Positions 28,663-64,000 of a DNA stretch of 64,000 bases are shown here, in pieces (position 1 is the stretch's first letter; each line of letters begins with the position of its first letter). Origin of the DNA: Fuscovulum blasticum DSM 2131 (GTDB taxonomy: Bacteria > Pseudomonadota > Alphaproteobacteria > Rhodobacterales > Rhodobacteraceae); assembly GCF_003034965.1 (NCBI RefSeq), contig NZ_PZKE01000001.1:62001-126000 (forward strand). Reading direction: 5' to 3'. The position numbers and the translations under genes are program-made. Under the pieces are notes generated by a model. It searched no databases, was not told where the DNA came from, and saw nothing but the letters and a program-made list of their open reading frames with translations.

Positions 28663-29018
28663 GGCCGGAATCCTTGGCTTGAAAGGCTTGGGAATGCTGT
28701 GCGCGGAAGCAGGCCGCCCGCGCGGGCGGCGGCACCGTCAGGAAAGCCGGGCCGAGATCGACCGGGTTTCACGGGCAAAGCGCCAAGGCAGGCGCGCGCG
28801 GTCAGCCATGTCGAAAAAGCGCATCATGAGCCGGGGAGATACGCCTTATTCTCTTGGCGATCAAGCTGGGAGTCATCCCCCTGCCCCGGTGTCGGGCTTG
28901 TGGTTTCCCGGTCCGTTCGGGCGGACAATCACGATCACGGCACCGTGACGCAACGCAACCCACTATGAGGCGGCACACGGATGCAGGTTCCTGTATCCAA
29001 GATGCGGGGCTATAGAAT
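28663..29018. other. Intergenic region between leuC and the methyltransferase-TPR gene
   Basis: The two flanking genes are divergent, so promoters for both should be here. No known operator was recognised. A short frame on the plus strand, ATG 28808 to TGA 28948 (46 codons, or 40 from ATG 28826), starts MSKKRIMSRGD; it has no Shine-Dalgarno sequence and is not listed as a gene. Leucine codons are not enriched in it, so it is not an attenuator peptide. Confidence 0.4.
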
Positions 29019-30908
29019 ATGGCTCAGGTGTTCAATTTCGTCGAAAGGTTCAGCCAGGTGTCCGACACTTCCGTTGCTGGCAAGTCTGCCTCTGAAATGA
29101 CGGCCCAAGCCCGTGGGATAGACCCCCTGACAACTGCGGCCATCATCAACGGCACAGACAAATATGGCTATCATGACTACACGCCCAACTACTTTCGGGT
29201 GCTGAAGCATCTTCGCGACCGGCCGCTGCGCCTGCTGGAAATCGGGGTTGGCGGCTACAGCGATGAAGATCGCGGGGGCGAATCCCTGGCCGTCTGGCGG
29301 GACTTCTTTCCTATGGCGCAGGTGACGGGACTGGACATCCAGAAGAAGACTCTGCCCCTTGGGCCGCGCGTCCATATCGTGCAGGGCAGCCAGGTCGACG
29401 CCGAGTTTCTGGCCAGCGTCGAGGCGGCGCGGGGGCCTTTCGATGTAATCCTTGATGACGGCAGCCATCGAAACGAACATGTGGTCGAGACGTTCCGTCT
29501 GCTGTTCCCCGGCCTGGTTCCTGGCGGCATCTATCTGATCGAAGACGTGCAAACCTCCTTCTTCCCGCGCTTCGGCGGATCGCTGGAACTGACCCAGCCG
29601 AACAGCGTCGGGCTTTTTGCCCAGGCGATGACCCAGCTCAGCGGCGACCGCGACGGGATTTTCGATGACGTCGCTTCGATCGAGCGGTTTCACAACATGA
29701 TCGTCATTCACAAGTCCCCGGCTTCGGGCGCCAGGCGCAACCTGGACGCCAGCCCCCACTTGCTGCGGGCCGGCGAAGGGATCGGTGATCGCCCCGTCAA
29801 GGTGGCGCTGGTCGGCGGGGCCAAACTGCCCGCGGCCTTCGCCGGGCGCGATGTTGAAATCATCCAGCCGGACTGGTCTGCCGAATGGGGGCAAGGCCCG
29901 CTGGCGGGGCTTGATCTGATCGTCGCCGAACTGGACACCCCGAAGCGAAGCAAGAAAAGCAGCCGTTCGGCGGGTGGCGCCAAGGTCGGTGAGGATACCC
30001 TTCGTTCCCTGATCGGGGCCTTGCGCACGGATGGCGGTGTGCTGGTGGTCACGGCAACAGACCCTGCCCGCGATCTGGCGGCTGACAGCCCGGTCATGCA
30101 ATTTGCCCAACAGCGGTTTATCGAGGTCGATCATCGCGAGATGCGGGTGCATTTCCCCGATGTTGCCATTGATGAGCTTGCGACCCAGATTCATACCATC
30201 GAGCGGACGCCGGACGCGCTGTTGTTCGTCAAGGCGCCGAATGATTGGCCATCGAACTTTGGGTATGATGCCCGGAACCCGCAGGCGGCCGAGGCTTTGG
30301 CCAACATCCGGGCCGTTTTGGCTCATAGCGATGTCGAAGGCGGTCTGGTTCAGCTTCTCCAGATTGAAAACCGTTTCGGAACGCCGGAAGACACCCGCGC
30401 ACTGGAAGAAAAGCTGGGTTCGATGGGGGCCACCGCCCGGCGTTACTTCGAACATGCGGTTGCACAGGCGCAGCGTCGGCACGACCAGGCCCGTGTTGGC
30501 GCCTTGCTGACAAGGGCATTGGAAAACTACCCGGCCGATCCCGGCTTTTCCGCAGGCATGGCGCGGCATCTGATCGCCGAACGTCGGCAAGAGGACGCCA
30601 TGCGCGTTCTGAAGGAAGGTCTTGCCAAGACGCCCTCCCATCGCGTGCTGAACCAGTTGATGTCCAAGGTTCTTGTCGCCCAAGGTGATATTGAGGCAGC
30701 CCTGCCCTTCGCGCGCGAAGCCGCCGCAAGAACGCCACGGGATCAGCGCCCGCCACTTCAGGCGCGCTACGCAAAAATGCTGACCCAGGTTGGCAAATGG
30801 GCCGAGGCAGAGCGCTATGCAGCGCGCGCGGTGGATGTAACACCCAACAACGATGAGTTGCTGGCGGCCCTTGAATATGTCCGCACTAGAAAGCCGGATC
30901 TTCAATAG
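29019..30908 (+). CDS. SAM methyltransferase with C-terminal TPR-like repeats
   Basis: The 629-residue protein combines a class I methyltransferase domain (residues about 35-235) with a middle region and a helical repeat tail. The SAM site shows LLEIGVGGYSDEDRGGES, TGLDIQKK and DVILDDGSHRNEHV, similar to sugar or macrocin O-methyltransferases. Residues about 255-420 look like a second Rossmann-like domain (VKVALVGGAKLPAAF, LDLIVAEL). The last 170 residues contain TPR-like pairs such as LTRALENYPADPGFSAGMA and YAARAVDVTPNNDELLAAL. It is followed 163 bases later by another methyltransferase-bearing glycan enzyme, so a role in surface polysaccharide or glycoprotein modification is likely but inferred. 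Confidence 0.8.
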   Translation: MAQVFNFVERFSQVSDTSVAGKSASEMTAQARGIDPLTTAAIINGTDKYGYHDYTPNYFRVLKHLRDRPLRLLEIGVGGYSDEDRGGESLAVWRDFFPMAQVTGLDIQKKTLPLGPRVHIVQGSQVDAEFLASVEAARGPFDVILDDGSHRNEHVVETFRLLFPGLVPGGIYLIEDVQTSFFPRFGGSLELTQPNSVGLFAQAMTQLSGDRDGIFDDVASIERFHNMIVIHKSPASGARRNLDASPHLLRAGEGIGDRPVKVALVGGAKLPAAFAGRDVEIIQPDWSAEWGQGPLAGLDLIVAELDTPKRSKKSSRSAGGAKVGEDTLRSLIGALRTDGGVLVVTATDPARDLAADSPVMQFAQQRFIEVDHREMRVHFPDVAIDELATQIHTIERTPDALLFVKAPNDWPSNFGYDARNPQAAEALANIRAVLAHSDVEGGLVQLLQIENRFGTPEDTRALEEKLGSMGATARRYFEHAVAQAQRRHDQARVGALLTRALENYPADPGFSAGMARHLIAERRQEDAMRVLKEGLAKTPSHRVLNQLMSKVLVAQGDIEAALPFAREAAARTPRDQRPPLQARYAKMLTQVGKWAEAERYAARAVDVTPNNDELLAALEYVRTRKPDLQ

Positions 30909-31071
30909 GGTTCTGCGCGGAGGGGTCTTTTCGCAAAGCGTATGATCTGGCGGCAGATCGCGGTCATCAAGGCGCAAGCGACCGCCGTGAGCCCCTCGTG
31001 ACAATTTCAGGCGCCTGACGCAGACTGATACCAAGTGGCCTTGGCCGGGACGATTTTAAGTGGTGACGAAC

Positions 31072-33801
31072 ATGAAGTTTACGGGTGAACGCTATGTCCC
31101 TGGTATCGGCGGCAGCATCGCTCTTGAGCATGAGCACCGCTACAGGTTCTGCCTGGACTTCGTCAGCGGCCGCAGGGTTCTTGACATCGCCTGCGGTGAA
31201 GGGTTCGGCTCGGCAATGATCGCCGAACATGCCGAAAAGGTCTGGGGGGTAGATATAGACCGCCAAGCCGTCAGCCACGCAGTCGCGCGATATTCGCATG
31301 ACAATCTGCAATATCTGGTCGGATCTTGTTCGAACATCCCCTTGCCCGACGCTTCGGTCGATGTGGTGGTCAGCTTCGAGACGATCGAGCATCACGACAA
31401 CCACGATGGCATGATGAACGAAATCCTCCGGGTGATGCGCCCGGGCGGGGTGCTGATCATCTCAAGCCCCGACAAGCGCGTCTACAGCGACGAGCGCGGC
31501 TTCCGGAATGAGTTTCACGTCAAGGAACTTTATGCCGACGAGTTCGATGCCTTGCTGCGGGGGCGGTTCGCCCATGTGGCGATGTTTGGCCAGCGTATCG
31601 TTTACGGCTCGGCCCTGCTCCCGGAAGGCAGCCCGGGCGCGTTGCAGTCATGGGGGATCGACCAGACCAAGCCGGTCTCCGGCCTCCATGCGCCGATGTT
31701 CAAGGTTGCCGTGGCGTCGGACGATCCGTCTTGGGCCGCACTGGCGCGGGGCGGTCTGCTGGAAGATACCGTCTATCGCAGCGAGGCCATTATCGAACGC
31801 ACAGAGAATGGCCGCCGCGAAGCGACCGAGCAGACCCGGCGCGCCGAGGACGCCGTGCAGGAACTGCTGCGCGTAGAGGCGGACCGGGCAGAACAGGCGC
31901 GACGTGCCGAGCAGTCCTCGCAAGAGGTGTTGCGCCTGCAGGCAGATCTGGCCGCTCAGAACCAGCGGACGAATGATCTGCAGGAAACCGTCAACACGCT
32001 GTGGCGCGAATGGTATGGCAGCACGATCCTGCGCAGGATGGTGTTCCACCGCAGCGGCAAGCCGCGTGGCTGGGCGCGCAAGTTGCTGCTGAAAGACAAA
32101 TCGGGCACGCCGCGGCCCGCGCTGCGCCGTGTGCTGTTCAAGAAGAACGGGACCATCCGCCCCCCGTTCGCACGCTGGTATGCGCCCTTCATGGCCCATT
32201 CGGGCAAAGGCAGCACCGGGCTGGACTATGTTCAGTTCCTGGGCAGCCGTATCGCCAGCGGCGATCTTGCAGCAACCCGGACAGTGCATGTCGTTACCAC
32301 CCCGCACACCGAGTTCATCGGCGAAGGTCTTGCTGCGGCCTTGCGCAACACGCGGCTGACCGTGACCCGCTCAACCGAAATGCCTGCCGCTTTTGACCAC
32401 GACCTTTATATCGTGGTGGCGCCGCAGATGTTCGCCACCCTGCCACCTCCGGACAAGCTGATCGCGGTGCAGGTCGAACAGGTTCGCGCCTCGCGTTGGG
32501 TGGACGAAAGCTATCTGGCCCGCCTTCAGAACAGTCTGGCCATTCTGGATTACTCACGCGACAACATCGACGCCCTGATCAAGCGCGGTATCCCGTCAAA
32601 GCAGATTTACTACATGCCAATCCGCCCGCTGCGCCGCGAAGGACAGCCAAGGACGGAGCGAGACATTGATGTCTTGTTTTATGGGGCGATCGGGTCTGAT
32701 CGCCGGGGCCAGTACATCAACGCGCTGGCCAAGCGGGTCAACCTGCGGGTCGAATCCGACACATTCGGTCCGGCTTTGCGCAGCCTGCTGGACCGCACCA
32801 AGATTGTCGTGAACGTTCATTTCTACGAAAATGCGCTTCTGGAAACCACCCGCATCGGTGAGGCGCTAAGCCATGGCGCACATGTCGTTTCAGAAGATGC
32901 GATCGACCAGACGGATCACACCTCCTATGGCGAAACCGTCGACTTCGTTCCCCGAAATGAGGTTGAAACCTTTGTGCAGCGGGTCGAGGCGGCGCTTGCG
33001 TCATGGCAAGGCCCGGTTGACCTACCGCAGGATGACGGGTTTGACGGAATGTCCTTCCATGTCCTGCGGGCGCTTCACGGAATTGGTGTTCTGTCGCTTG
33101 CAGAGTTGCAGGCCGCCTGCCGTGACATGGTGCTGCCGTCTGACCGGATGATCCTTGCCCTTCCCGAACAGGTGCAACGCTATGACGCCGCCCGTCGTGG
33201 CCGCCTGCCCGGTGCGGTGCCCTTCCACGGGTTGCGGCAATTGCTTGGGTGGCAAGGCTGTGCAGCCAGCTACAAGTTCCTTGCAACGCAAGCCCTGGCA
33301 CAAGACCTGCGTCATCTGACCATTTACGAAGATGACGCGATCTTTGATCCCGGTGCCGATCAGCGACTGACCGCGATTGAGACCCATCTTGATACCCGGA
33401 ACGACTGGGACATCTTTTCAGGGCTGCTGACAGACCTTCATTCCGATGCGCAAGTGACCGGCGTCAGCACCGCTGCGGGCGAAGAATTCATCGAACTGGA
33501 CAGCGTGATCGGCATGGTCTTTGGCATCTACAGCCGTCACGGCTTGCAGATGCTTGCCAATTTCGAATTCGAAGGCCATGACACCGCCGTTCACACCATC
33601 GACCGCTGGCTTGAACGCCGCAGCCCGCGCACCTTGACGGTGATGCCGCCCCTGGCCGGCCATGACGAGAGTTTGACATCAACGCTGTGGCCGGTGAACA
33701 ACTCTCAGGTCGCCTCGATGATCCACGACAGCGTCAAGCGGCTGGAAGAAAAGCGCGCGGCCTTCTGGGCACGCCAGAAGGCGGCCGAGACCTCCGACTG
33801 A
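31072..33801 (+). CDS. Methyltransferase / coiled coil / glycosyltransferase / GT25-like fusion protein
   Basis: The 909-residue protein has four parts. Residues 1-230 are a class I SAM methyltransferase (MKFTGERYVP start, LDIACGEGFGS, FETIEHH, RPGGVLIIS). Residues about 238-312 are a coiled coil rich in Glu, Arg and Ala. Residues about 400-650 look like a CgeB/GT4-type glycosyltransferase (DIDVLFYGAIGSDRR, NVHFYENALLETTRIGEALSHG). Residues about 690-880 resemble a GT25 LPS glycosyltransferase, with GWQGCAASYKFL and a YEDDAIF acidic motif. All four in one chain suggest processive building and capping of a surface glycan. ATG 31072 is the usual family start; GTG 31060 is an alternative. Confidence 0.8.
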   Translation: MKFTGERYVPGIGGSIALEHEHRYRFCLDFVSGRRVLDIACGEGFGSAMIAEHAEKVWGVDIDRQAVSHAVARYSHDNLQYLVGSCSNIPLPDASVDVVVSFETIEHHDNHDGMMNEILRVMRPGGVLIISSPDKRVYSDERGFRNEFHVKELYADEFDALLRGRFAHVAMFGQRIVYGSALLPEGSPGALQSWGIDQTKPVSGLHAPMFKVAVASDDPSWAALARGGLLEDTVYRSEAIIERTENGRREATEQTRRAEDAVQELLRVEADRAEQARRAEQSSQEVLRLQADLAAQNQRTNDLQETVNTLWREWYGSTILRRMVFHRSGKPRGWARKLLLKDKSGTPRPALRRVLFKKNGTIRPPFARWYAPFMAHSGKGSTGLDYVQFLGSRIASGDLAATRTVHVVTTPHTEFIGEGLAAALRNTRLTVTRSTEMPAAFDHDLYIVVAPQMFATLPPPDKLIAVQVEQVRASRWVDESYLARLQNSLAILDYSRDNIDALIKRGIPSKQIYYMPIRPLRREGQPRTERDIDVLFYGAIGSDRRGQYINALAKRVNLRVESDTFGPALRSLLDRTKIVVNVHFYENALLETTRIGEALSHGAHVVSEDAIDQTDHTSYGETVDFVPRNEVETFVQRVEAALASWQGPVDLPQDDGFDGMSFHVLRALHGIGVLSLAELQAACRDMVLPSDRMILALPEQVQRYDAARRGRLPGAVPFHGLRQLLGWQGCAASYKFLATQALAQDLRHLTIYEDDAIFDPGADQRLTAIETHLDTRNDWDIFSGLLTDLHSDAQVTGVSTAAGEEFIELDSVIGMVFGIYSRHGLQMLANFEFEGHDTAVHTIDRWLERRSPRTLTVMPPLAGHDESLTSTLWPVNNSQVASMIHDSVKRLEEKRAAFWARQKAAETSD

Positions 33802-34378
33802 CAAATCAGCCGGTGTTCGGCGCGGCCTGGCAGACCGCCGTGCAGATGCTGATCCGGCAGGTTGCCACGGCCCAGGCCCGGCAAGGTTGAACAGTGCCTT
33901 GCACAGAAGCCTGGCGCCATGTCCTGCCCGCGCCCTGTACGATCTGACGTTTTCGGTCGAACCGTCTTGTGCGGGACAAGAAGAGCAAGCCCCCCGGGTG
34001 CGGGGCGTGCCGATGCTCACCAACTACCATAACCCATTACAGACCAACGATTCACACTACGGGCCGCGCCAACGATTGGTTCGGCATGGGAACAGGGTCA
34101 CCAACGACAGGCCATCCGTCGACCGAAATTTCATGGAAACATCCATGCAGCGCCTTTGGTGTCACCAAATGCCGCTGAGAAGCGGGCCATGCCGATGGCG
34201 AGTCACGAAATGCTGCTTCTTGCCCGGGTATTCCGACGCCCAAATGTGCCGATTCACCCTGCAAAATCAGCAAAGGCCCGGTGTCGGGGCGGCCCTGCAA
34301 GCAAATGGCCCCAGATGCCCCGGCGTTGTGGGCACCCGATGCCGCGAAACCGCGCCAGATCGGGCGATGACATTCGGA
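33802..34378. other. 577-base stretch without a convincing gene
   Basis: Frames here are either short or run antisense into folC, and none has a ribosome site or recognisable protein. A 9-base direct repeat, CCAACGATT, occurs at 34044 and 34069, the second inside CCAACGATTGG, a small palindrome. The region separates the large glycan enzyme from the convergent folC gene and is less GC-rich near 34020-34150 than its surroundings. It may be a relic left by an insertion. Confidence 0.4.
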
Positions 34379-35656
34379 TCAGCCGTTTTCCTTGAGCACC
34401 TGCCCGGCCAGATACAGCGAGCCGCAGATCAGGACGCGGGCGTCGGGCTGCTCTGCCGCAATGGCCGCCAGCGCCGCCGCAACCGAGGGGGCGGCTTCGG
34501 CGGCCATGCCCGCGTCGCGGGCGGCGTCGCGGGTGGTATCGGCCGGCAGCGTGTTCGCCTCGCCCGGAATCGACACGGCGTAAAGCCGGGTGACATGCGG
34601 CGACAGCGGGCGCATGTAGCCCCGCACGTCCTTGGTGTTCAGCATCCCGCAGATCAGCCAGGTCGGGCGTGCAGGCATCCGGGCCAGGGTGGCGGCGACG
34701 GCCACTCCTCCGGCGGGGTTGTGCCCGCCGTCCAGCCACAGTTCCACCTGCGGCGCCAGATCGACCAGCGGCCCCCGGCGCAGGCGCTGCATCCGGGCGG
34801 GCCAGACGGCGCGGCTGACGGCGGCTTCGCAGGCGGTCTCATCCCGGCCAAGCAACCGCAGCGCGGCCACCGCCGCGCCGGCGTTCTGAATCTGGTGCGG
34901 CCCGGGCAGATTGGGCAGCGGCAGGTCAAGCAGGCCGTTCTCATCCTGATAGATCAGGCGACCGCGTTCTTCCCACGCCTGCCAGTGCTGGCCATACGCG
35001 AACAGCGGCACACCCAGACGGGCGGCCCTGGCCTCGATCACGGCCAGCCCCTCGGGCGTCTGCGGGCCCACCACACAGGGCACGCCGCGTTTCAGGATGC
35101 CAGCCTTTTCGCCGGCAATCTCGGGCAGGGTTTCACCCAGATACTGCTGATGGTCGATCGACACCGGCGTGATGATGGTCAGCGCCGGTTTGTCGACCAC
35201 ATTCGTCGCATCCAGCCGCCCGCCAAGCCCCACCTCAAGCAGGGTCCATTCCGCCGGCGTCCGGGCAAAGGCCAGGAACGCCGCACAGGTGGTGATCTCG
35301 AAGAAGGTGATGCCTTCGCCGCCATTGGCGGCAGCACATTCATCCAGCAGCGCCGTCAGCGAGGGTTCGCTGATCAGTTCGCCCGCCAGCCGGATGCGTT
35401 CGTGGAACCGCGCCAGATGTGGCGAGGTATAGGCGTGAACACGGTCGCCGCCGGCCTCAAGCCCGGCGCGGATCATCGCCTGCGTGCTGCCCTTGCCATT
35501 GGTGCCCGCGATGTGAATCACCGGGGGCAAGCGACGTTCGGGGTGATCCAGCGCCGCCAGCAGGCGATGCACCCGGTCCAGCGTCAGGTCGATGACCTTG
35601 GGATGCAGGGTCATCAACCGTTCAAGAATGGCGTCCGAGCCCTGCGGCAGTGTCAC
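34379..35656 (-). CDS. folC: Folylpolyglutamate synthase / dihydrofolate synthase
   Basis: The 425-residue Mur-ligase-type enzyme adds glutamate to dihydropteroate and to folates. It shows the P-loop [44 protein letters not shown]-like [11 protein letters not shown] and the C-terminal DGGHNPAG motif. The start is GTG 35656, which overlaps the accD stop as GTGA, so the pair is translationally linked; accD-folC is a common arrangement. The downstream 577 bases hold no clear gene. Confidence 0.95.
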
Positions 35657-36585
35657 CCTTCGCTCTCCGCCGGGGTGGGAAGGACTTCGGGTTCGGGCGG
35701 CGGGGGCGGTGGGGCCAGATCGCCCTTGATCGGCGGCGGCAGCGACATCAGCATTCGGATCATCGTCGCCAGCTCTTCCCGCAGGTTCTTGCGGTGAACC
35801 ACCCGGTCCAGCATTCCGTGATCCAGCAGGTATTCGGCGCGCTGGAACCCTTCGGGCAGCTTTTCGCGGATAGTCTGTTCGATCACCCGCGCCCCGGCAA
35901 AGCCGATCTGCGCATTCGGTTCGGCAATCTGGATGTCGCCCAGCATGGCATAGCTGGCCGTGACCCCGCCCGTCGTCGGATGGGTCAGCACCATGATATA
36001 GGGCAGACCCGCCTCTTTCAGCAGTTGCACCGCCACCGTGGTGCGGGGCATCTGCATCAGCGACAACATGCCTTCCTGCATCCGCGCGCCACCGCTGGCC
36101 GAAAACAGCACCAGTGGCTTCTTCGTCTTCACGGCATGTTCGGCGGCGGCAATGATGGCATTGCCGACATACATGCCCATCGACCCGGCCATGAAGCTGA
36201 AATCCTGCACGGCGGCCACCACCGGGGTGCGGGCGATCTCGCCCTCGGCCACCAGCATGGCATCCTTGGCGCCGCTGGCCTTTTGCGCGGCCTTCATCCG
36301 GTCCGAGTATTTCTTCTGGTCCCGGAACCCCAGCGGATCGACCACCGGGTCCGGCACCTTGATTTCCGAGAAGATGCCGCCGTCGAACAGCGACATCATG
36401 CGTTCGCGCGCGCCCATCGTCATGTGGTGGTCACAGGCCGAACAGACGTTGAGATTGGCCGCCAGTTCCCGATGGAACAGCATGGTTCCACATTCGGGGC
36501 ACTTGGTCCAAAGGTTCTCGGGCACTTCGCGCCGCGAGAAGAGCGAATTGATCTTCGGGCGGACGTAGTTCGTGATCCAGTTCAT
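35653..36585 (-). CDS. accD: Acetyl-CoA carboxylase carboxyltransferase subunit beta
   Basis: The 310-residue subunit transfers the carboxyl group from biotin to acetyl-CoA, the first step of fatty acid synthesis. It has the four-cysteine zinc ribbon CPECG...CSACD near residues 28-50, then [23 protein letters not shown] and [11 protein letters not shown], and [18 protein letters not shown], all crotonase-fold elements of AccD. The C-terminus ends in a proline-rich tail ([13 protein letters not shown]). It starts [11 protein letters not shown] at 36585 and is coupled to folC. Confidence 0.97.
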
Positions 36586-36671
36586 GCCGGTCCTTCCGGG
36601 GTCGGTCGCGCAGGTGCCAAGGAAATAAGCCGAGGGGGCGGCGATTGCAATCCGCAGCCCGGCGGGTGGTG

Positions 36672-37268
36672 TCAGACCCGCCGACGGGCGCGCAGCGCCG
36701 CGCCCAGGGTGCCGTCATCCAGATAATCCAGCTCGCCGCCCACCGGCACACCCTGCGCCAGCGAGGAAAGCTGCACCCCGGTCGGGGCCAGCGCATCGGC
36801 AATGTAATGCGCGGTCGTCTGGCCATCGACGGTGGCATTCAGCGCCAGAATCACTTCACGCAGGCCCTCATCCGTCACGCGGCGGGCCAGCCGGGGAATT
36901 CCCAGTTCCTCGGGGCCTACGGCATCCAGCGCCGACAGAAGGCCGCCCAGAACGTGATAGCGCCCGCGGAACACGCCTGCCCGCTCCAGCGCCCAGAGGT
37001 CGGCCACGTCCTCCACCACGCAAACCTCGCCATTGGCGCGGGCCGGGTCGGCGCAGATCGGGCACAGGTCCGCGGTGCCGATATTGCCGCAGATGTGGCA
37101 ATCTTTCGCGGTCAGCGCCACCTGCGCCATGGCCTGCGCCAGGGGGGCCATCAACTGCCCCCGTTTCTTCAGCAGCATCAGCACCGCCCGCCGGGCAGAC
37201 CGGGGGCCAAGACCCGGCAGCCGGGCCATCAGTTCGATCAGACCCTCGATCCCGGCGTCGTCTGCCAT
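36672..37268 (-). CDS. recR: Recombination mediator protein RecR
   Basis: The 198-residue protein has the helix-hairpin-helix start [18 protein letters not shown], the zinc finger [16 protein letters not shown] near residue 57, and a Toprim domain with [12 protein letters not shown] and [19 protein letters not shown]. RecR works with RecF and RecO to load RecA at single-strand gaps. It begins 7 bases after ybaB on the same strand, and dnaX lies just beyond, reproducing the widespread dnaX-ybaB-recR linkage with a GNAT gene added. Confidence 0.97.
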
Positions 37269-37275
37269 GCCGGTC

Positions 37276-37620
37276 TCAGAACGGCAGTTTCATGTCGGTC
37301 GGCAGACCCAGGCTTTCGGTCATCTTGCGCATTTCCTCGGCGTTCTTCGCCGCGCCACGGGCCTGACCATCCTTGATCGCCGCAACGATCAGGTCTTCGA
37401 CCACTTCCTTTTCCGAGGCGAGCAGGATCGACGGGTCGATGTCCAGCCCGGTCACTTCGCCCTTGGCGGTGACACGTGCCTTGACCAGACCGCCACCCGC
37501 TTCGCCCAGCACCACGGTGCGGGCCATGGCATCCTGCAACTCGGCCATGCGGGTCTGCATTTCCTGGGCCTTTTTCATCATGCCCGCCATATCGCCCAAT
37601 GCGCCAAGACCCTTGAACAT
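37276..37620 (-). CDS. YbaB/EbfC-family nucleoid-associated protein
   Basis: The 114-residue DNA-binding protein begins [22 protein letters not shown] and contains [16 protein letters not shown] and the [12 protein letters not shown] helix, typical of YbaB/EbfC dimers that coat DNA. GGAGGAA stands 6 bases before ATG 37620, fixing the start; the longer open frame upstream is ignored. It lies between the GNAT gene and recR. Confidence 0.95.
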
Positions 37621-37684
37621 GTGCTTCCTCCAGCCTGGGGTTTCTCCTGAGATACGGTTCCGCGCCCGCGCGCGCAAGCGCGGC

Positions 37685-38158
37685 TCAGGGCGTTGCGCGG
37701 TAAAGCATCCGGCGAAGGGCAAAGCCTTGCGCTTCAAAGAAGGCATGTGCCGCATGGTTGCCCTCCCAGGTGTCAAGCAGGATTTCATCGGCCCCAAGCC
37801 CACGCGCCAAAGCCCGCGCTTCAGTTAGCAGCGCCGCGCCGATGCCCCGCCGCCGGGCCTGCGGCGCAACGGCGACATGCTCGATCATCAGCCGCCGAAC
37901 CGGCGGGGAAAACACCGAAAGACCGCGCTCTTGCAGCGAACACAGCGCATAGCCGGCAGCCGGATCACCGGCCAGCAGGCAGGTCACGCCCGGTTCTGCC
38001 AGCCGGCCTGCGAAATGCGCCGTCAGCGCCGCCGGATCGGGTTGCGGAAAGAACGCTTCAGGGTAGTGCGCGGCGTGCCAGCCCTGCACATGGGCGTTCA
38101 GCACGGCCACTGCCGCCGCATCGTCCGGGCCGGCGCGGCGGATTGCCACGGCGGTCAT
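37685..38158 (-). CDS. GNAT-family N-acetyltransferase
   Basis: The 157-residue protein has GNAT motif A as VAVAPQARRRGIGAALLTEARALA near residue 95 (acetyl-CoA pyrophosphate loop R-R-G-I-G-A) and motif B as LDTWEGNHAAHAFFEAQGF. The acceptor is unknown. ATG 38158 overlaps the dnaX stop codon by 4 bases, so it is translated with dnaX. It is inserted between dnaX and ybaB, which are usually adjacent. Confidence 0.9.
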   Translation of the reverse strand: MTAVAIRRAGPDDAAAVAVLNAHVQGWHAAHYPEAFFPQPDPAALTAHFAGRLAEPGVTCLLAGDPAAGYALCSLQERGLSVFSPPVRRLMIEHVAVAPQARRRGIGAALLTEARALARGLGADEILLDTWEGNHAAHAFFEAQGFALRRMLYRATP

Positions 38159-39921
38159 TCCTCGAACGGGTCCCAGTCGTCGTCCACGTCGGGCTCGGCT
38201 TCGGGAAGCGCCTCTTCGGCGGCGCGGGCGGCCAGCGCCTCGGGCGTGCGGATCTCGGTGATCTTTGCCTCGGGGAATGCGGCCAGAACCGCCTGCACCA
38301 GCGGATTTTCCATCGCCTCGGCGCGGGCCGCGATCCGGTCTCGGTCACGCTGTTCGGCCAGCGTCGGCGCCCCGCCCGACGCCACCACCGACACGCCCCA
38401 GCGGCTGCCGGTCCAGGCTTGCAACCGCTGGCTCAGCCGCGCGGCAAGGTCGGGGCGGGCGCCCGGGGCCGGTTCAAACTCGATCCGGCCGGGGGAATAA
38501 CGCACCAGCCGCACGCCATCCTCAACCTCGACCAGCAGGGTCATGTCGCGCTTTTCGCGGATCAGGTCGACCACGGCCTCGAACGTGGCGCAAACCACCC
38601 CCTGCCCGACCGCCAGCGCCGGCGCGGCTGCGGTCATGGTCGGCCCGCGGGCCGGCGCCATGGGCGCCCGCATCATCGGCGCATGGACGGTGCCGCCACC
38701 CCCTCCTCCGCCGCCCGCGGGCGCCCCGCCCGAAGGCGGGCGCGGGCCGTCGGTCAGTCTCTTCACCAGCGTCTCGGGATCGGGTAGGTCGGCCACATGC
38801 GTCAGCCGGATCACCGCCATTTCGGCGGCCATCATGGCATTCGGGGCCAGTCCCACCTCTTCGATCGCCTTCAGCAGCATCTGCCACATCCGGCTCAGGG
38901 CCCGCATCGGCAGGCGCGATGCCATGTCCAGCCCGCGCGACCGTTCGTCGGGCGGCACCGTCGGATCATCTGCCGCTTCCGGGGTGATCTTGATCACGCT
39001 GATCCAGTGGGTGATCTCGGCCAGATCGCGCAGCACGACCATCGGGTCGGCCCCGGCGGCATATTGCCCCGACAGTTCCGACAGCGCCGCGGCCGCATCG
39101 CCCTTCATCACCAGATCGAACAGGTCCAGCGTGCGGCCCCGGTCGGCCAGACCCAGCATGGCGCGCACCTGTTCGGCCGTGGTTTCGCCCGCGCCATGGC
39201 TGATCGCCTGGTCCAGCAGGCTGGTCGCATCACGGGCAGACCCTTCGGCAGCGCGGGTGATCAGCGCCAGCGCCTCGTCGCTGATCTGTGCGCCTTCGGC
39301 CCCGGCAATCCGGCGCAGCAGCGCGATCATCACCTCGGGCTCGATCCGGCGCAGGTCGAACCGCTGGCAGCGCGACAGCACCGTCACCGGCACCTTGCGG
39401 ATTTCGGTGGTGGCGAAGATGAACTTCACATGTGCGGGGGGTTCCTCAAGCGTCTTCAGCAGCGCGTTGAAGGCGCTGGTCGACAGCATGTGAACTTCGT
39501 CGATGATATAGATCTTGTAGCGGGCGCTGGCGGCCCGGTAGTGCACACTGTCAATGATCTCGCGGATGTCGCCCACGCCGGTGCGGCTGGCGGCGTCCAT
39601 CTCCATCACATCGACGTGCCGGCCTTCGGCAATTGCGCGGCAGGGTTCGCACTGGCCGCAGGGTTCGGTGGTGGGGCCACCCTTGCCATCAGGGCCAATG
39701 CAGTTCAGCCCCTTGGCAATGATCCGCGCCGTTGTGGTTTTGCCCGTGCCCCGGATGCCCGTCATGATGAAGGCCTGCGCGATCCGGTCGGCCGCGAAGG
39801 CATTCTTCAGGGTGCGCACCATCGCCTCCTGGCCAACCAGATCGGCAAAGGTCTCGGGCCGGTATTTGCGGGCCAGAACCTGATAGGCTTGCCCTTGGGC
39901 GGTGTCTGCGGCTTCGGTCAT
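38155..39921 (-). CDS. dnaX: DNA polymerase III subunits gamma and tau
   Basis: The 588-residue clamp-loader ATPase starts with YQVLARKYRPETFADLVGQE, then Walker A GIRGTGKTTTARI, a zinc site with cysteines in LNCIGPDG and EPCGQCEPCRA, Walker B region IYIIDEVHMLS, and the SRC-type motif VLSRCQRFDLRR. The C-terminal tau-specific part follows a glycine-rich linker (GGAPAGGGGGGGGT) near residue 405. No clear A-rich slippage site for a short gamma form was noticed. The stop overlaps the GNAT start. Confidence 0.96.
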   Translation of the reverse strand: MTEAADTAQGQAYQVLARKYRPETFADLVGQEAMVRTLKNAFAADRIAQAFIMTGIRGTGKTTTARIIAKGLNCIGPDGKGGPTTEPCGQCEPCRAIAEGRHVDVMEMDAASRTGVGDIREIIDSVHYRAASARYKIYIIDEVHMLSTSAFNALLKTLEEPPAHVKFIFATTEIRKVPVTVLSRCQRFDLRRIEPEVMIALLRRIAGAEGAQISDEALALITRAAEGSARDATSLLDQAISHGAGETTAEQVRAMLGLADRGRTLDLFDLVMKGDAAAALSELSGQYAAGADPMVVLRDLAEITHWISVIKITPEAADDPTVPPDERSRGLDMASRLPMRALSRMWQMLLKAIEEVGLAPNAMMAAEMAVIRLTHVADLPDPETLVKRLTDGPRPPSGGAPAGGGGGGGGTVHAPMMRAPMAPARGPTMTAAAPALAVGQGVVCATFEAVVDLIREKRDMTLLVEVEDGVRLVRYSPGRIEFEPAPGARPDLAARLSQRLQAWTGSRWGVSVVASGGAPTLAEQRDRDRIAARAEAMENPLVQAVLAAFPEAKITEIRTPEALAARAAEEALPEAEPDVDDDWDPFEE

Positions 39922-40003
39922 GGGGCCTCTCGTGACTCGGGCGCCAGACTAGGGCGCGGGGGGGCGAAGGTCCACCGCCAAGGCAGACCTTCGCCCGGTC
40001 TTG

Positions 40004-41556: not shown

Positions 41557-42423
41557 ATGTTGGCGAGTATCATGGTTTTACCGAATGTCCTGGGTATTGG
41601 CGCGCAAAAGGCCGGGACATCGTGGCTGCACGAAAACCTGAAGTCCAATCCGGGCGCCTGGCTGCCGCCGTTCAAGGAACTGCATTTCTTCGATCACAAG
41701 TTCATCCCGGATCACCGCCGCTGGACGGGTGGCCATGTGAAGCGGGGCCTGCGCATTGCCCGGGAAAACGCCGCACTGGCCGAAGACACCGACATGCTGG
41801 CGTATCTGGAAACGATTTCCGAACCGCCGCTCCTGACGCGCAGATGGTATCGGCAGGTCTTCAAGCCCTGCCCCAAATCCCGGGTCGGCATTGACATCAC
41901 CCCAGAGTATTCCTCGCTTCCGCCGGAAGGTGTGGAGTTCGTCCGCGACGTGCTTGGTCCTGATCTGAAGATGATCTACATCATCCGCGATCCGGTGGAC
42001 CGCGCGCTGTCACAGATGCGAATGTATATGGGCCGCCGCAAGAGAGTGCCCGAAGCCCCCGAGGATTGGGCCGAATTCCTTGACCACCCCGATCTTCGGG
42101 ATCGGGGCAATTACCTCAGCCATATTCCGCGATGGGAAAGCGTGTTCCCGCAGGAGAACTTTCTTTTCCTGCCCTATGGCATGATCGCGACAGACCCTAT
42201 CGGGTTCCTGCGGCGTGTCGAATCCTTCTGCGGGCTGCCCGCAGCCGACTATCCGCGATCCGAGGAAAAGATCTATCGCGGACCGACGGTTGAGGTGCCG
42301 CAGCACATTCGTGACACGTTGGCAGACATGCTGGCCGATCAGGTTGCCTTCCTGAAGACACGGTTCAGCGCAGACTTCGTTCACGCCACGTCCGCGCCGG
42401 CCAGTAGGGGCGGGCAAGGATAA
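41557..42423 (+). CDS. Sulfotransferase domain protein
   Basis: The 288-residue protein has the PAPS-binding loop near the N-terminus (LGIGAQKAGTSWLHENL, residues about 12-28) and the 3'-phosphate-binding motif YIIRDPVDRALSQMRMY near 145-160. These are the two key sites of heparan/aryl-type sulfotransferases. It should move sulfate from PAPS to a carbohydrate or other hydroxyl. ATG 41557 and ATG 41572 are both possible starts. A second sulfotransferase-like gene begins 74 bases after its stop, suggesting a two-gene transcript. Confidence 0.87.
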   Translation: MLASIMVLPNVLGIGAQKAGTSWLHENLKSNPGAWLPPFKELHFFDHKFIPDHRRWTGGHVKRGLRIARENAALAEDTDMLAYLETISEPPLLTRRWYRQVFKPCPKSRVGIDITPEYSSLPPEGVEFVRDVLGPDLKMIYIIRDPVDRALSQMRMYMGRRKRVPEAPEDWAEFLDHPDLRDRGNYLSHIPRWESVFPQENFLFLPYGMIATDPIGFLRRVESFCGLPAADYPRSEEKIYRGPTVEVPQHIRDTLADMLADQVAFLKTRFSADFVHATSAPASRGGQG

Positions 42424-55165: not shown

Positions 55166-57208
55166 CTACCAGACCCGCACCTGTGCGCGGGCAGAGCGGC
55201 CGGCGGCGTCGATCACCGAGAGGGTGACGAAGCCCTTGCCGGGCAGGGCCAGCATCGCCTCGCGGTCACGGGCGCCGGTGGTGACGGGGGTGCCGTCCAC
55301 CATCCAGGTAAAGGGCGCGGTGCCCCCGGAAACGCGCACCTTCAGGCCGGCATCAAGCAGCTCCACCTCGGCCCCGTCAGGCGGGAAGGCAACGGCGGGC
55401 GCATCCGGGGCGGCGGCAAACACGGCGTTGCGCGGGCGGAAGCGTTGCAGCGGCGGCGGAAGCTGGGCGTTCGAGACCAGCAGCGTGGCCGCCGGCGGGG
55501 GGGGTTGCGGGTCCAGCGTGCGTTTCAGCCGGTTGAAGGCCTGGAACAGCACCGGCGCCGCCAGATCGGCGCCGAAAACGCCGGGAACCGGGGTGCCATC
55601 GGCCCGGCCCATCCAGACGCCAATGACATGGCGGCCGTCAAAGCCAATGGCCCAGGCATCGCGGTGGCCATAGCTGGTGCCGGTCTTGTAGGCGAGCCGG
55701 TTTGACGGTGCGCCGGGCGGCGGCGCAAGGCCCGCCAGGATGTCACCCACCTGCCAGGCGGCCACGGCGGAAATCACGCGCTGGCCTTCGGGGCGGTCGC
55801 CCTCCATCCGCCAGCCCAGGGGCAAGGCCACGCCGCCACGGGCAATGGCGGCGTAAAGCTGAACCATGTCGGTCAGGGTGACGCCCACCCCGCCAAGCGC
55901 CACGGCAAGCCCCGGCTGGTTGCCCGGCACGCGATAGTGCATCCCGGCCTTGCCCATGGCCGACAACAGCTTGGCCGGCCCCAGCGCATCGGTCAGCGCC
56001 ACCACGGGCAGGTTCAGCGATTTCTGCAACGCCTCTCGCGCGCGGATTTCGCCACGGAACAGCTTGTCGAAATTCTGCGGCGCATAGCCGCCAAAGGTCA
56101 TCGGGCGGTCGTCCAGCAGGGTTTCGGGATGGGCAAGACCTTCATCAAAGGCAAGCCCATAGACCAGCGGCTTCAACGTCGATCCGGGGCTGCGCAGCGC
56201 GGTCGTCATGTCAACGAAGCCCTGCCGCGCATCGGCGGCAAAGGCGGCAGAGCCGACCGAGGCAAGGATTTCACCAGATGCGTGGTCGGCCACCACGATG
56301 GCGACCTGCAACTGTTCGCCACGCCCTTCCACAGCCTCGGCCGCCAGCGCCTCGATCTTCTTCTGCAAGGACAGATCCAGCGTCAGGCGCTGTTCGCGGG
56401 CGGCCGGGTCTTCGGCGCGGGCGCGGTCGGCCAGATGCGGGGCATGGGCCGGAAAGGGCTGGCGCAGGCCGGGAACCCGCTCCGTCAGGGCGGCGGTGGC
56501 CTCTTCCTCGTCGATCAGATGGAAGGCCACGGCGCGGGCCAGCACCCGGTCGCGGGCGGCTTCGGCACGGTCGGCGGCGCGGTCGGGGCGGCGGCTTTCC
56601 GGGGATTGCGGAATGGCCACCAGAAGCGCCGCCTCGGCCGGGGTCAGCCGGGCCGGTTCCTTGCCGAAATAGGAAATCGAGGCGGCACGCACCCCTTCCA
56701 GATTGCCGCCGAACGGGGCAAGCAGCAGATAGAGCGACAGGATTTCATTCTTGGACAGCCGGCGTTCCAGCGCCAGCGCCACCCGCATCTGCCGCAGCTT
56801 GCCCGAGACTTGGCCGGTGGTGCCTTCTTCCAGCAGGCGCGCGACCTGCATCGTCAGCGTGGACCCGCCCGAGACGACACGCCCGTTCCAGGCCGCCTGC
56901 GCCAGGGCGCGGGCCATCGCACGCAGATCCACGCCGTCATGGTCGCGGAACCGGCGGTCTTCAAAGTTCAGCAGCATGTCGATGTAGCCGGCATCGACTT
57001 CATCCAGACCTACGGCCAGCCGCCAGCGCCCATCCGCCACGGTATAGGCCCGCAGCAGATGACCGTTGCGGTCCAGCACCTCGGCGCTGGTCTCAATCGT
57101 CAGCGGCGGCAGCACGGTGGCATCAACCCAGGCATCGAACCTGTCATGCCCAAGGGCGGCAAGCCAAAGGCCTGCCGCCACCGCGAGAAAGCCGCGCGCC
57201 AGCATCAT
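55166..57208 (-). CDS. pbpC: Penicillin-binding protein 1C
   Basis: The 680-residue class A PBP has an N-terminal anchor helix, a glycosyltransferase 51 domain (FEDRRFRDHDGVD with the catalytic Glu near residue 82, GGSTLTMQ, RKxxE-like KLRQMRVALALE), a transpeptidase domain with SPGSTLKP, KSLN and KTGTSYG, and the C-terminal BiPBP_C domain (VAFPPDGAEVELLD). These are typical of PBP1C. Its ATG at 57208 overlaps the stop of the alpha-2-macroglobulin gene by 4 bases, the known pbpC-A2M pairing. Confidence 0.95.
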   Translation of the reverse strand: MMLARGFLAVAAGLWLAALGHDRFDAWVDATVLPPLTIETSAEVLDRNGHLLRAYTVADGRWRLAVGLDEVDAGYIDMLLNFEDRRFRDHDGVDLRAMARALAQAAWNGRVVSGGSTLTMQVARLLEEGTTGQVSGKLRQMRVALALERRLSKNEILSLYLLLAPFGGNLEGVRAASISYFGKEPARLTPAEAALLVAIPQSPESRRPDRAADRAEAARDRVLARAVAFHLIDEEEATAALTERVPGLRQPFPAHAPHLADRARAEDPAAREQRLTLDLSLQKKIEALAAEAVEGRGEQLQVAIVVADHASGEILASVGSAAFAADARQGFVDMTTALRSPGSTLKPLVYGLAFDEGLAHPETLLDDRPMTFGGYAPQNFDKLFRGEIRAREALQKSLNLPVVALTDALGPAKLLSAMGKAGMHYRVPGNQPGLAVALGGVGVTLTDMVQLYAAIARGGVALPLGWRMEGDRPEGQRVISAVAAWQVGDILAGLAPPPGAPSNRLAYKTGTSYGHRDAWAIGFDGRHVIGVWMGRADGTPVPGVFGADLAAPVLFQAFNRLKRTLDPQPPPPAATLLVSNAQLPPPLQRFRPRNAVFAAAPDAPAVAFPPDGAEVELLDAGLKVRVSGGTAPFTWMVDGTPVTTGARDREAMLALPGKGFVTLSVIDAAGRSARAQVRVW

Positions 57209-60200
57209 TTGCCGGCGATGGTCACCGTTCCCACATCGCTGCGGGCGCGGAAGTCGGGGCGATACATATCCTCGACCGAGGCCGCCGGGTGGTGGAAGGT
57301 TCCGGGGCTGACGGCGCGGACGATATAGGACAGCTTGAACGGCTGGTCGGACGACCAGTCCACCTGCGCAAGGAAACGGTCCTGCCGGAATTCGGCATGG
57401 GTCACCTGATCCAGCGTATCCAGCCAGCCAAGCGCCGAGGTCGAACCACTGGCCATGATGTTGGGGTTGTCGATCTCGAACCCGGCCGGCAGCGGATCGG
57501 CCACCATCAGGCGCCCTTCGGAATATTCGAAGGGCTTGACCGTCACCACCACGACCAGCCGGTCGCCAACCTTGACACCTTCCAGCGAAACCGGCTCGCC
57601 CTCCATCGTGTAATAGTCACGGTTGATGGCATAACCTTTGCCACCGGCGGGCTCCGGTTCGGAAGGCACGCCATAGGTGGTGATGGTCAGGTAGGTATCC
57701 GCGCCTTCATTGCTGACGGTGACGGGGGCCTGACCATCGGTCAGCACCTTGACCAGCGGGCCGGTCGGGGCCTGCCCGTCGATCTTGATGCCATCCGTGC
57801 CGGGCCGGTCGATCAGCGCGTTCGTCGCCATCAGCGCCCAGGTCGCCTCTTGCGTCGAAAGGTTGCCGTTGGCGGTGGCCAGCCGGGCCACCAGCGCCTC
57901 GCGGTCCATTGCCTCGGACCCGGCCTCGACAGCCAGGGTCAGCAGGGCGGCGGCGTCGCGGTAGCCGGTGCCATAGTCGGCCCGCCAGACCTGCCTGGCG
58001 TCGCCGTCAAACAGCGCGGGCACCCGCGCGGCAGCCTTGCGGAACATGGCGTCGGCGCGGGTCTGGTCGCCATAGGACGCCAGCGCCGCACCGATCTGCG
58101 CCTGTGCCAGTGCGCTGGCGAAATCATCGCCCTTCACATCGGCATAGTAGCGCAGATCGCCAATCGCAGCAGCCCCTTCGCGGGCCAGCACCATGATCGC
58201 ATAGGCCAGCGCCTCGCCCCCGCCATTGGTGGAGCCGTCGAAATCGGGTGCCGAGTTCACCTGATTGCGCAGGTTGGCCAGGGCGTTCTTGAAGGCCAGA
58301 TCCGGCACCGCATAACCCTGTGCCCGCGCCCGGCTGAGGAAATCGGTCACATAGGCATCAAGCCAGAGGTCGCCCGACCCCGGTGCCCAAAGCCCGAATG
58401 ACCCTTCGGCCCCCTGATTCGACAGGATTTCGGCCACCGCCTGGTCAATCCGGGTCTGGATGTTGTCAGCCCCTTTCAGATCCATCACGCGGGCGATTTC
58501 GTCGAAATACAGCAGCGGCATCGCCTTGGATGTCATCTGCTCGGTGCAGCCATAGGGATAGCGGTCAAGCCCGGCCAGCAGCCCCGGCGCGTTCAGCCGG
58601 GCGATGGGACCGATCGCCATGACCGATTTGCCCGAACCCGGAACAAGGCCGGTGAACACGGCCTGATCGAAGGTCATCGACTGGCCCTTCTTCAGGTCAA
58701 GCCGGCTGATCTTGGCAATCTCCGGGTCATTCACCTGAACCGGCAGCGTCAGGGTCTTTTTCAGCACCTTGCCGTCGGGCGTGGTCAGCGTCACGTCGAT
58801 GGTATGGATACCTGCGCTGACAGCGGTCAGCGGCACCTCAACCACCTGCTTGCCCTTTTCGGCAAGGGTCACCTCGGCCGGGGCGGCGCCCAGCGTCACG
58901 CCATTGCCCGCCACGGCCAGCGCCATCTTTCCGGCAGGGCCCGTGGCGTGGACAATTTCCAGAAGGACGCGGCTTTCATCGCCGGGCGACATGAAGCGCG
59001 GGATCGAGGCGGTAACAACCACCGGATCGCGCACCAGCACATCGGCGCTGGCCTGCCCCACGCCGGTCTTCGACCAGGCCACGGCCATCACCTTCACCGT
59101 GCCGTTGAACGAAGGCAGGTCAAAGCTGGCGCGGGCATAACCATCAGCCCCCACCTGCACCGGGCCGGTGAAATAGGCCACCAGTTCCTCTGTCGGAGGC
59201 GGGGCTTGCAGGCGGGCCTGCGCGCCGGCATCACCGCCGGACCGGACCTGCCCTTCCGCGCCGTTCAGCCCGTCGATCAGACGGCCATAGACATCACGGA
59301 TGCCCACGCCCAGCTTGCGCTGGCCGAAGAAATGGCCCTGCGGATCGGGGGCCTTGAAGCCGGTCAGGTTCAGGATGCCCTGATCGACGGCGGCAATGGT
59401 GACATAGGCGGTTTCGCCTTCGGTGATACCGTCCACCTTGACCGCCACTTCCATCGGGCCGCGCGGTGCGGCCTCGGGCGCGGTTTCGATGCTGGCGGTC
59501 AACGCGCGGCTGCCCGGGTCAATGCTGGCATAAGACAGGCCAAGCGCGCGGGCCGGATTGCGGCCGGCAGCCACATCCATCGGCCGCAGGACCGAGGCGG
59601 TGACATAGACGCCGGCGCCCCAGTCCGCGGTGACGGGCAGCTCGATCAGGTTTTCACCTTCGCTGACCTCGACCGCCTTCATGGTGACCAGACGGTTCGA
59701 CAGCACCGTCACCAGCGCGGTGCCGGCGGCGCGGGGCACGATGCGCAGCGTCGCGGTGTCACCGGCCTTGTAGGCGGGCTTGTCCAGCGACAGTTCCAAC
59801 GTGTCGGGCGTGGCCGAGGTGTCGGCGGGCGCATACCAGCCGGCCCAGAAGGTGGTGGATGTTTCCGCGATGGTGCCGTCGGTCCGTTCGACCTTGATCT
59901 CGTATTCGCCCCAGGTCACCGGGGCGGCCACCTGAACGGGCGCATCGCCCAGGGTGGCCTCGCCTTCGGCAACAGGGGTGCGATAGGTCACCGGCTCCCA
60001 GTTCCAGTTGCCGTAGGATTGATACCACTGATAGTCGGTCTCGATCCGGGTGATGGTCCATTTCACCGGCATCGGCGCGGGCTTCAGATCAGTGCCGACA
60101 CCGATCAGTTCAAAGGTCGCGTTGGTGCCTTCACCGGCCACGCCATCGAACAGCGGCTTGACGCCGATCATGGCCGAAATCGGGGTGACCGACTTGGTCA

Positions 60201-62658: not shown

Positions 62659-62836
62659 GAAAAACCCTCCTGTCACATGACGGTGAGAGTGCCATGCCCC
62701 CCGGCAAGCGGCAAGCAGAGGTTCCCTCATTTTGTCGTTAAGTCTTGGTTCATTCTGCTGGGCGAAGGTAGTCGCGAAAACCGGACGTTGGCCCCGCCAG
62801 CGCCGGAGCGGCAGGCAGGATGTCGGCTGGGGCGCG

Positions 62837-64000
62837 ATGGATCTGAGCGAGAGACTGGCAAAGGAACGCCGGGCCCGGCTGGCGGCCGAACGCCTGCTGG
62901 AACAGCGCACGCGCGAACTGTTTGCCGCCAACGAAAAGCTGGCGCTTCATGCGCGCGTGCTGTCGGACCAGATCGTCGAACAGCGGGTTGTGGTGCAGAC
63001 CGCCGTGACCGAGGCCGAGACGCTGAAAGGCCAGAATACCCGCGTCCTGCGCGATCTGGAACGCGCCCATACCGCCGCTGTCATGGCGGAACGGCGGTTG
63101 TGGGATTCGATCGACACCATCCGCGACGGGTTTGCCGTCTATGACGCGCAGCTTCGGCTGATCACCGCGAACAGCGCATTTGCAGCCGGTTTTGGCGGTT
63201 CTCAGATCGAGCCCGGGGTCACCTATGGCGCGCTGTTGCATCTGCTGGCCGATCAGGGGCTGATCGACACCGGCGAGATGCCGGCAGACGATTGGGTGGC
63301 CGGCATGATCGCCCGGCTGGATGAAGACCCGATCCCGCCCGAAACGCTGCATTTCCGCAGCGGCGCCTGGGTGCGGCTGGTCAACCGCCGCGCCCGCGAT
63401 GGCGGGGTGGTCAGCCTTGGCCTGGATATCACCGAACAGATGCGCATCTGGGCCGCCGTCGAGGCGCTGCCCGATGGCTTTGTCCTTTTCGACAGGGAGG
63501 AACGTCTCTTGACCTGCAACCAACGGTATCGCGACATGTTTCCCGACAGTGTTCCGGTGATGGTCCGCGGCACCAGCTTCGAGGATCTGCTGCGCCACGG
63601 GCTGCGCAACGGCCATGTGCCCGCCGCCGTGGGCCGCGAGGAGGACTGGCTGGCCGACCGCCTGCGCCAGATGCGCGAGGCGAACGGCAGCAGCGAATGC
63701 AGGCTGGCCGATGGCCGATGGATTCTGGAAAGCGACCATGTGACACCCGACGGCGGGCGGGTGGGCCTGCGCACCGACATCACCCAGTTGCGCGAACAGC
63801 AGACCGCGCTGGAAGCCGCCCGCCGGCAGGCCGAAGCGGCAAACCGCGCCAAATCGGCGTTTCTGGCCAACATGAGCCATGAGATCCGCACCCCCATGAA
63901 CGGCGTGGTCGGCATGGCTGAACTGCTATGTGACACCAGTCTCAGCGATGAGCAGCGGCTGTTCGCGGAAACCATCCGCTCGTCGGGCGAAGCGCTGCTG
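62837..64000 (+). CDS. PAS-containing sensor histidine kinase (partial, runs off the right edge)
   Basis: The first 388 codons are present and the frame is open to the window end. There is no membrane segment, so it is a soluble sensor. Residues 1-90 form a coiled coil; two PAS-like modules follow ([22 protein letters not shown] at about 91-200 and [19 protein letters not shown] at about 207-316, shortened here); then a HisKA dimerisation domain with phospho-acceptor His348 in [15 protein letters not shown]. This H-box form is common in hybrid kinases, so receiver domains may lie beyond the edge. It is divergent from the A2M gene. No clear ribosome site is seen before ATG 62837. Confidence 0.88.

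Follow-up and report, generated by a model that had tools for sequence, protein, structure and literature searches.

A methyltransferase, coil and glycosyltransferase-like fusion protein of Fuscovulum blasticum DSM 2131 compared with described chain-terminating enzymes

Described systems and the Fuscovulum fusion

In the passages of PMC11231755 that deal with them, Klebsiella O7 ORF6 and O12 WbbB carry a terminator, a coil and polymerising glycosyltransferases (GTs) in one chain, and the coiled coil is named there as a hallmark of this mode of assembly, while WsaE, as presented in part of PMC2943079, joins a methyltransferase held to form the cap to two GTs and lies behind wzm/wzt. A gene of comparable layout is described here from Fuscovulum blasticum DSM 2131, within a stretch of 64,000 nucleotides (contig NZ_PZKE01000001.1, positions 62,001 to 126,000; hereafter the window, from the first letter of which positions are counted). 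The fusion gene P0001 (31072..33801, plus strand) is open from ATG 31072 to the stop at 33801 and encodes 909 amino acids (aa), with an in-frame GTG also present upstream at 31060. The first-pass annotation had described one protein with a methyltransferase, a coil and two GT-like domains, and this was borne out in a single frame with four parts; a reading of the ruler built into the same chain as GTs as unprecedented was not, as WbbB, WsaE and O7 ORF6 are precedents in the cited parts of PMC11231755 and PMC2943079.

Each described system agrees with the window protein in some respects and departs from it in others. Klebsiella pneumoniae O7 ORF6 likewise has an N-terminal methyltransferase, a coil and two C-terminal GTs, but its locus contains wzm/wzt and rml, whereas no wzm/wzt lies near the window gene; it also has a kinase domain and a carbohydrate-binding-module-like fold before the coil, neither of which fits in the window protein, and its modules are GT2, against a GT-B (CgeB/GT4-like) and a GT25-like module here, as compared by description from passages of PMC11231755. 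WbbB of Klebsiella/Raoultella O12 joins, in the same passages, a terminator, a coil ruler and two polymerising GTs in a single polypeptide, but its terminator is a GT that transfers Kdo (3-deoxy-D-manno-oct-2-ulosonic acid), not a methyltransferase, and its domains belong to GT99, GT102 and GT103, again by description. WsaE of Geobacillus stearothermophilus shares the N-terminal methyltransferase and two GT domains, which by description are rhamnosyltransferases, and its locus, with wzm/wzt upstream and rml downstream in the passages of PMC2943079, resembles the Comamonas locus treated below. WbdD of Escherichia coli O8/O9 has, like the window protein, a methyltransferase and a coil, which in WbdD serve as capper and ruler, but it is without GT modules, its polymerase WbdA being separate and recruited, and it was not among the best 60 of the 87 Protein Data Bank (PDB) matches of the window protein; WbdD of the O9/O3 type has a kinase domain after the methyltransferase, whereas no Pfam kinase was matched in the window protein. 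The layout common to WbdD, WbbB and O7 ORF6, with a catalytic domain across the coil from the GTs, was found by Pfam, script and AlphaFold2, but the wzm/wzt of the same locus and the Wzt with a cap-binding C-terminal domain were found neither beside the gene nor in the genome, respectively, and for these two reasons the protein was not filed as a member of the WbdD pathway.

Taking capping and decorating functions together, the window protein is very probably a surface-glycan assembly enzyme. The specific function that we favour, held at slightly under even confidence, is that of a cytoplasmic assembly enzyme with end capping and a coil ruler: the C-terminal GT-B and GT25-like modules, perhaps a two-linkage polymerase, would work at the membrane to lengthen a lipid-linked sugar chain, the N-terminal methyltransferase would be kept at a distance beyond a helical coil some 80 residues long, and it would methylate the non-reducing end once the chain was long enough to reach it, which would halt growth. 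Catalysis, the identity of the sugars, the role of the methyl group as a terminal cap and not a decoration, and the action of the coil as a ruler are what we infer in this proposal. A builder, ruler and capper in one chain seems well motivated here, but not new in kind; few characterised proteins hold polymerase, ruler and terminator in a single chain, and no paper on a methyltransferase-coil-GT25 protein was found by title or abstract start among the matches listed from open-licence PubMed Central (PMC).

Four parts of the fusion protein

The N-terminal domain (aa 1-225; 31072..31746, plus strand) is assigned unambiguously by its sequence to the S-adenosylmethionine-dependent methyltransferases, with Pfam PF08241 matched at aa 37-130 (E 1.8e-22) and the motifs VLDIACGEG at aa 36-44 and SFETIEH at aa 101-107. 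The best 25 of 62 NCBIfam matches were methyltransferase models, all far under their cut-offs, and contained nothing notable for the C-terminal half. Homology of the methyltransferase extends to aa 223 and the coil begins at aa 229, and because aa 225-229 leave no room for a kinase, a plain methyl cap and not methyl phosphate would be expected. The domain matched 243 plasmid records, and eight of the best ten listed, one of them without annotation, were examined, to which the window methyltransferase is 38-48% identical (an 8-sequence alignment was made). Six of the seven annotated relatives are GT-module fusions of 1014-1623 aa (GT2, GT4 or WbsX), and in all seven a loose script marks, behind the methyltransferase, a stretch that is either heptad-patterned or helical and proline-free. 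The seventh, from Shinella, has only 387 aa, with a methyltransferase, a heptad stretch and no GT fusion; its gene comes after those of an ATP-binding cassette (ABC) permease, a Wzt_C-bearing ATPase (E 4e-32) and one other methyltransferase. In a Pseudodesulfovibrio fusion (L073:5798-9427), tandem 18-residue repeats lie between the methyltransferase and the GT2/GT4 modules, with nine matches of the repeat motif at exact 18-residue spacing, a coil that could serve as a ruler of variable length through its repeat number.

The coil is predicted as one long helix at aa 229-315 (31756..32016, plus strand). A heptad-contrast script returned a single unbroken stretch over these residues with a peak of 5.19, against 5.15 for the 95th percentile of 60 shuffles, so by this crude test the signal is only just beyond chance. 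AlphaFold2, given the window protein and one relative (mean predicted local distance difference test score, pLDDT, 39.5), modelled aa 236-315 as a single helix, some 80 residues long, whose first 60 residues have pLDDT 59-75. Structure prediction, which the first-pass annotation had named as a check, thus recovered the helix but confirmed neither GT fold (pLDDT mostly <50). A basic linker follows at aa 316-378 (32017..32205, plus strand), with three copies of (K/R)-(S/N)-G-x-x-R, and is common to the G274 protein described below, with the aligned match starting at aa 320; in a search of 100 genomes, G274 not among them, it was matched in none of the 99 other than the own. The linker could be a membrane-contact element.

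The GT-B module (CgeB/GT4-like; aa 378-654, 32203..33033, plus strand) is a likely assignment, drawn from a 5-sequence alignment and PF13524 matches under the cut-off. PF13524 on the window domain alone gave E 0.011 and 16.1 bits against a cut-off of 25, and was weakly matched by all three members of alignment A3 (best E 2.9e-4), while the aligned Comamonas domain passes PF13692 (E 1.3e-7, 32.5 vs 27 bits). EX7E is the motif of GT4/CgeB-like GT-B enzymes; E214 and E220 are common to the five aligned sequences and form E-x5-E, no formal EX7E search having been made.

For the GT25-like module (aa 655-909; 33034..33798, plus strand), we regard homology to GT25 as established, by profile comparison. 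The first-pass annotation had pointed to a YEDDA motif, which lies at aa 752-756 (EDD at 33328-33336); EDD, in GT25 an acidic metal-binding motif, is invariant in nine aligned sequences (the window protein and eight relatives) and in four GT25 proteins. When the 9-member profile was set against these four proteins, hhalign gave a probability of 98.5% (E 1.5e-15, 167 columns), in a comparison that was not blind, since the four match PF01755 but were chosen with the window family's own profile. PF01755 itself gave E 0.0013 and 19.0 bits on the window domain alone (cut-off 24) and was matched at E <=1 in three of the five members of alignment A2, the other two being unmatched even at E 1; Comamonas fell under the cut-off (15.7 bits), Pseudochrobactrum alone exceeded it (26.5 bits), and a Pfam scan at E 0.01 assigned no family to five of six full-length GT25-like relatives. 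The 9-member profile returned nine PDB matches at E <=5, of which the first seven were weak (E 0.004-0.015) and carried the names GT25, procollagen galactosyltransferase 1 or R655, the eighth and ninth being unrelated; a 3-member two-domain profile returned exactly those seven chains at E <=5 (0.02-0.06). We take procollagen galactosyltransferase 1 and R655 to be of GT25 type. Both GT parts of the window protein therefore remain under Pfam cut-offs in domain searches, while the relatives support GT25 and make GT-B likely.

Relatives, exporters and the competing functions

Relatives with the whole GT pair were found in G274 (same family, 40% identity), a Hyphomicrobiales metagenome-assembled genome (MAG; 35%), a Comamonas plasmid and three Pseudochrobactrum plasmid records. 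The full pair occurs in 2/393 genomes of the family, 1/385 of a class sample and 1/329 of a phylum sample, with the own genome included each time; single-module matches add five genomes in the class sample and 15 in the phylum sample (one, G861, in the GT25 part), from which G861, G928 and G1058 were examined further, and the GT25-like module is present in three of 13 genomes of the genus, own included. Among the relatives examined, all four parts occur in order only in the window and Comamonas proteins. An assembly artefact or a decaying, functionless fusion would agree with the few full-length relatives and with a complete pair in so small a share of the family, but we regard it as most improbable, given a single open frame of 909 codons, conserved motifs in each module and the same order in the independent complete plasmid record of Comamonas.

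The Comamonas odontotermitis plasmid protein (952 aa) consists of Methyltransf_24 (PF13578, E 4.8e-26), a coil and the same GT pair, its coil being a run of 143 residues free of proline that includes a heptad stretch (aa 242-336), and its C-terminal 529 residues are 34% identical to the window protein across 532 columns. No significant similarity was detected between the window and Comamonas methyltransferases (best E 7.2), and by sequence each fusion has a methyltransferase of a different family. The Hyphomicrobiales MAG keeps the parts in two abutting genes, one for a GT-pair protein of 664 aa and one for a methyltransferase protein of 640 aa. The latter shares 54% identity at its N-terminus with the Comamonas methyltransferase and then passes into a proline-free run of 220 residues in which helix-favouring residues abound. 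In G861 a protein with a coil-like start, a partial GT-B module and GT25 is encoded by a gene that overlaps the last part of an 864-aa open reading frame (ORF), which we read as two GT4-like halves. A Mesorhizobium protein (L041:4800-6236) has the GT-B module first and then, by eye, a methyltransferase-looking region, and adjoins a 933-aa protein annotated GT25. The same GT pair thus occurs with two unrelated methyltransferases, with none detected, or beside a separate methyltransferase-coil gene, and with these natural part-swaps one can ask if glycan length is set by coil length and cap and not by particular enzymes, and if a cap-reading transporter is required for capping at all.

Ten GT25-like loci were examined for exporters (the window, L016, L018, L019, L020, L037, L038, L039, L040 and L109), with L017, L041 (GT-B part only), L110 and L111 left out of the count, and ABC exporter genes lie directly beside the GT25-like gene in five. 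The start of the Comamonas fusion gene overlaps a wzt with Wzt_C (E 2e-38) on the same strand, with a permease gene before wzt and rfbBDAC beginning 1.7 kb downstream of the fusion gene; in Pseudochrobactrum a permease and a short ATPase stand beside the GT25-like gene on the same strand, the permease being unlike any reference permease and the exporter class resting on the ATPase and rfb genes; in G006 and G009 KpsM, KpsE and KpsT are divergent from the GT25-like gene, and in Paracoccus yeei the same genes are convergent. In the own genome, PF01061 has four matches: one in the window, part of an ABC-2 exporter whose ATPase gene lies alongside, two on contig C10 and one, KpsM-like, on contig C14. 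The C14 locus also has KpsE- and KpsT-like genes, similar to the exporters of G006, G009 and P. yeei, together with ORFs that we read as GT2-like, sulfotransferase-like (L055:2405-3421) and rhamnan-synthesis-like. PF01943 (Wzx-type) was unmatched in the own genome at E 0.001, with 13 of 14 controls matching, and the KpsMTE-like set is the only polysaccharide exporter recognised there with PF14524, PF01943 and PF01061, and it is the leading candidate if a polymer is exported in Fuscovulum blasticum.

Length control with capping, as the first-pass annotation had put the role, gains from relatives that link methyltransferase, coil and GT pair in surface-glycan loci and from the recurrence of the window methyltransferase type in methyltransferase-coil-GT fusions, as in six of the seven annotated plasmid relatives; the order recurs with unrelated methyltransferases, once overlapping wzt with Wzt_C, and proteins studied by experiment follow a like module logic (PMC11231755). 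A number of observations weigh against it. The coil is short and barely above shuffles, and the script found no heptad segment in the separate methyltransferase-coil protein of the MAG; the GT-B profile found no GT in the PDB; no Pfam methyltransferase was matched in G274, Pseudochrobactrum or the GT25-only relatives, though G274 and Pseudochrobactrum have the GT pair. Only two of the five adjacent exporters are same-strand and consecutive (Comamonas and Pseudochrobactrum), the other three being divergent or convergent, and an exporter is absent from the available DNA at five of the ten loci, the window included, where no glycan exporter (wzm/wzt included) is near the gene. PF14524 (Wzt_C) has 0 matches in the own genome (G000), and it was likewise unmatched in the Hyphomicrobiales MAG, G274, G006, G009 and G060, with one of seven genomes (G459) matching and three of 14 control genomes matching, two of them over the cut-off. 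Cap recognition by the Wzt domain is presented as structurally shown for Aquifex in passages of PMC9445017; with Wzt_C unmatched, the own genome lacks the step at which the WbdD pathway reads the cap, and with no exporter nearby, capped-chain export as in the WbdD system finds no support. Nor is the self-contained machine supported that the first-pass annotation had thought possible. Finally, the distant GT-B relatives in G928 (1189 aa; L110:4773-8342) and G1058 (974 aa; L111:3438-6362) run in the order GT-B, methyltransferase, GT2, which is at odds with a terminator at the far end.

A fused decorating enzyme, whose GTs would add one or two sugars as an adaptor, side chain or branch and whose methyltransferase would modify that sugar or internal residues, with the coil merely joining the parts or dimerising and exerting no length control, is a serious but tentative alternative. 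The placement of the methyltransferase after GT-B in G928 and G1058 raised its standing and lowered our confidence in end capping, and it agrees with an own genome in which C14 carries a KpsMTE-like locus and Wzt_C is unmatched, with GT25-like proteins without a detected methyltransferase beside KpsM in G006, G009 and P. yeei, and with published accounts: KpsMT systems are described in PMC12220298 as recognising the glycolipid end, the passages found there mentioning no chain terminator, and an ABC-exported capsule without a terminating residue exists according to part of PMC11231755. The recurrent order with unrelated methyltransferases, and its overlap with wzt in Comamonas, speak against decoration and for the end-capping enzyme with a coil ruler. 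A variant of end capping, that the enzyme pairs with a KpsMTE exporter lacking a cap-binding domain so that methyl capping alone would set length, uncoupled from transporter recognition, seems unlikely; in its favour are the KpsM/KpsE/KpsT-like neighbours of the GT25-like module in G006, G009 and P. yeei, and the C14 locus as the one polysaccharide exporter recognised in the own genome with the families searched. If true, it would combine the capsule pathway with the WbdD-type O-antigen pathway.

Setting of the gene

The fusion gene and the gene upstream of it lie between leuC and folC (28663-34378). The neighbour (29019..30908, plus strand), 163 bp upstream on the same strand, encodes 629 aa in which a Methyltransf_24/CmcI-like domain (PF13578, E 3.4e-6) is joined to tetratricopeptide repeats (TPR_19, E 1.8e-9), and it is a possible partner of the fusion protein. 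An enzyme of protein or flagellin glycosylation, or of secondary metabolism, acting with this neighbour and with no link to polysaccharide export, would suit the position beside a Methyltransf_24/TPR gene between leuC and folC and a window in which the searches turned up no counterpart of the relatives' polysaccharide exporters, but the relatives stand in loci with rfb genes or ABC exporters, and we consider such an enzyme improbable. G+C is 0.59-0.65 across 28663-34378 against 0.64-0.72 in 34000-39999, but 0.61-0.65 immediately to the left, so the dip around the two genes is one-sided. Neither of the two genes, nor folC, was found (tblastn, E 1e-8) in eight leuC-flanking regions, one of them only 6.8 kb, of 12 other genomes of the same genus, so no empty insertion site could be demonstrated. 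Promoter and terminator scans gave chance-level results. A viral or phage origin was rejected, as relatives were absent from the viral-contig scans (profiles A4, A2 and A3) and from a phage tblastn, and PHROGs matches were limited to generic methyltransferases and weak chance-level families. Downstream, a lone sulfotransferase gene is located at 41557-42423 (PF00685, E 5.4e-19), and at 55166-62931 on the minus strand a bacterial alpha-2-macroglobulin (1908 aa, with a PAN domain) is encoded beside a penicillin-binding protein with transglycosylase, transpeptidase and BiPBP_C domains.

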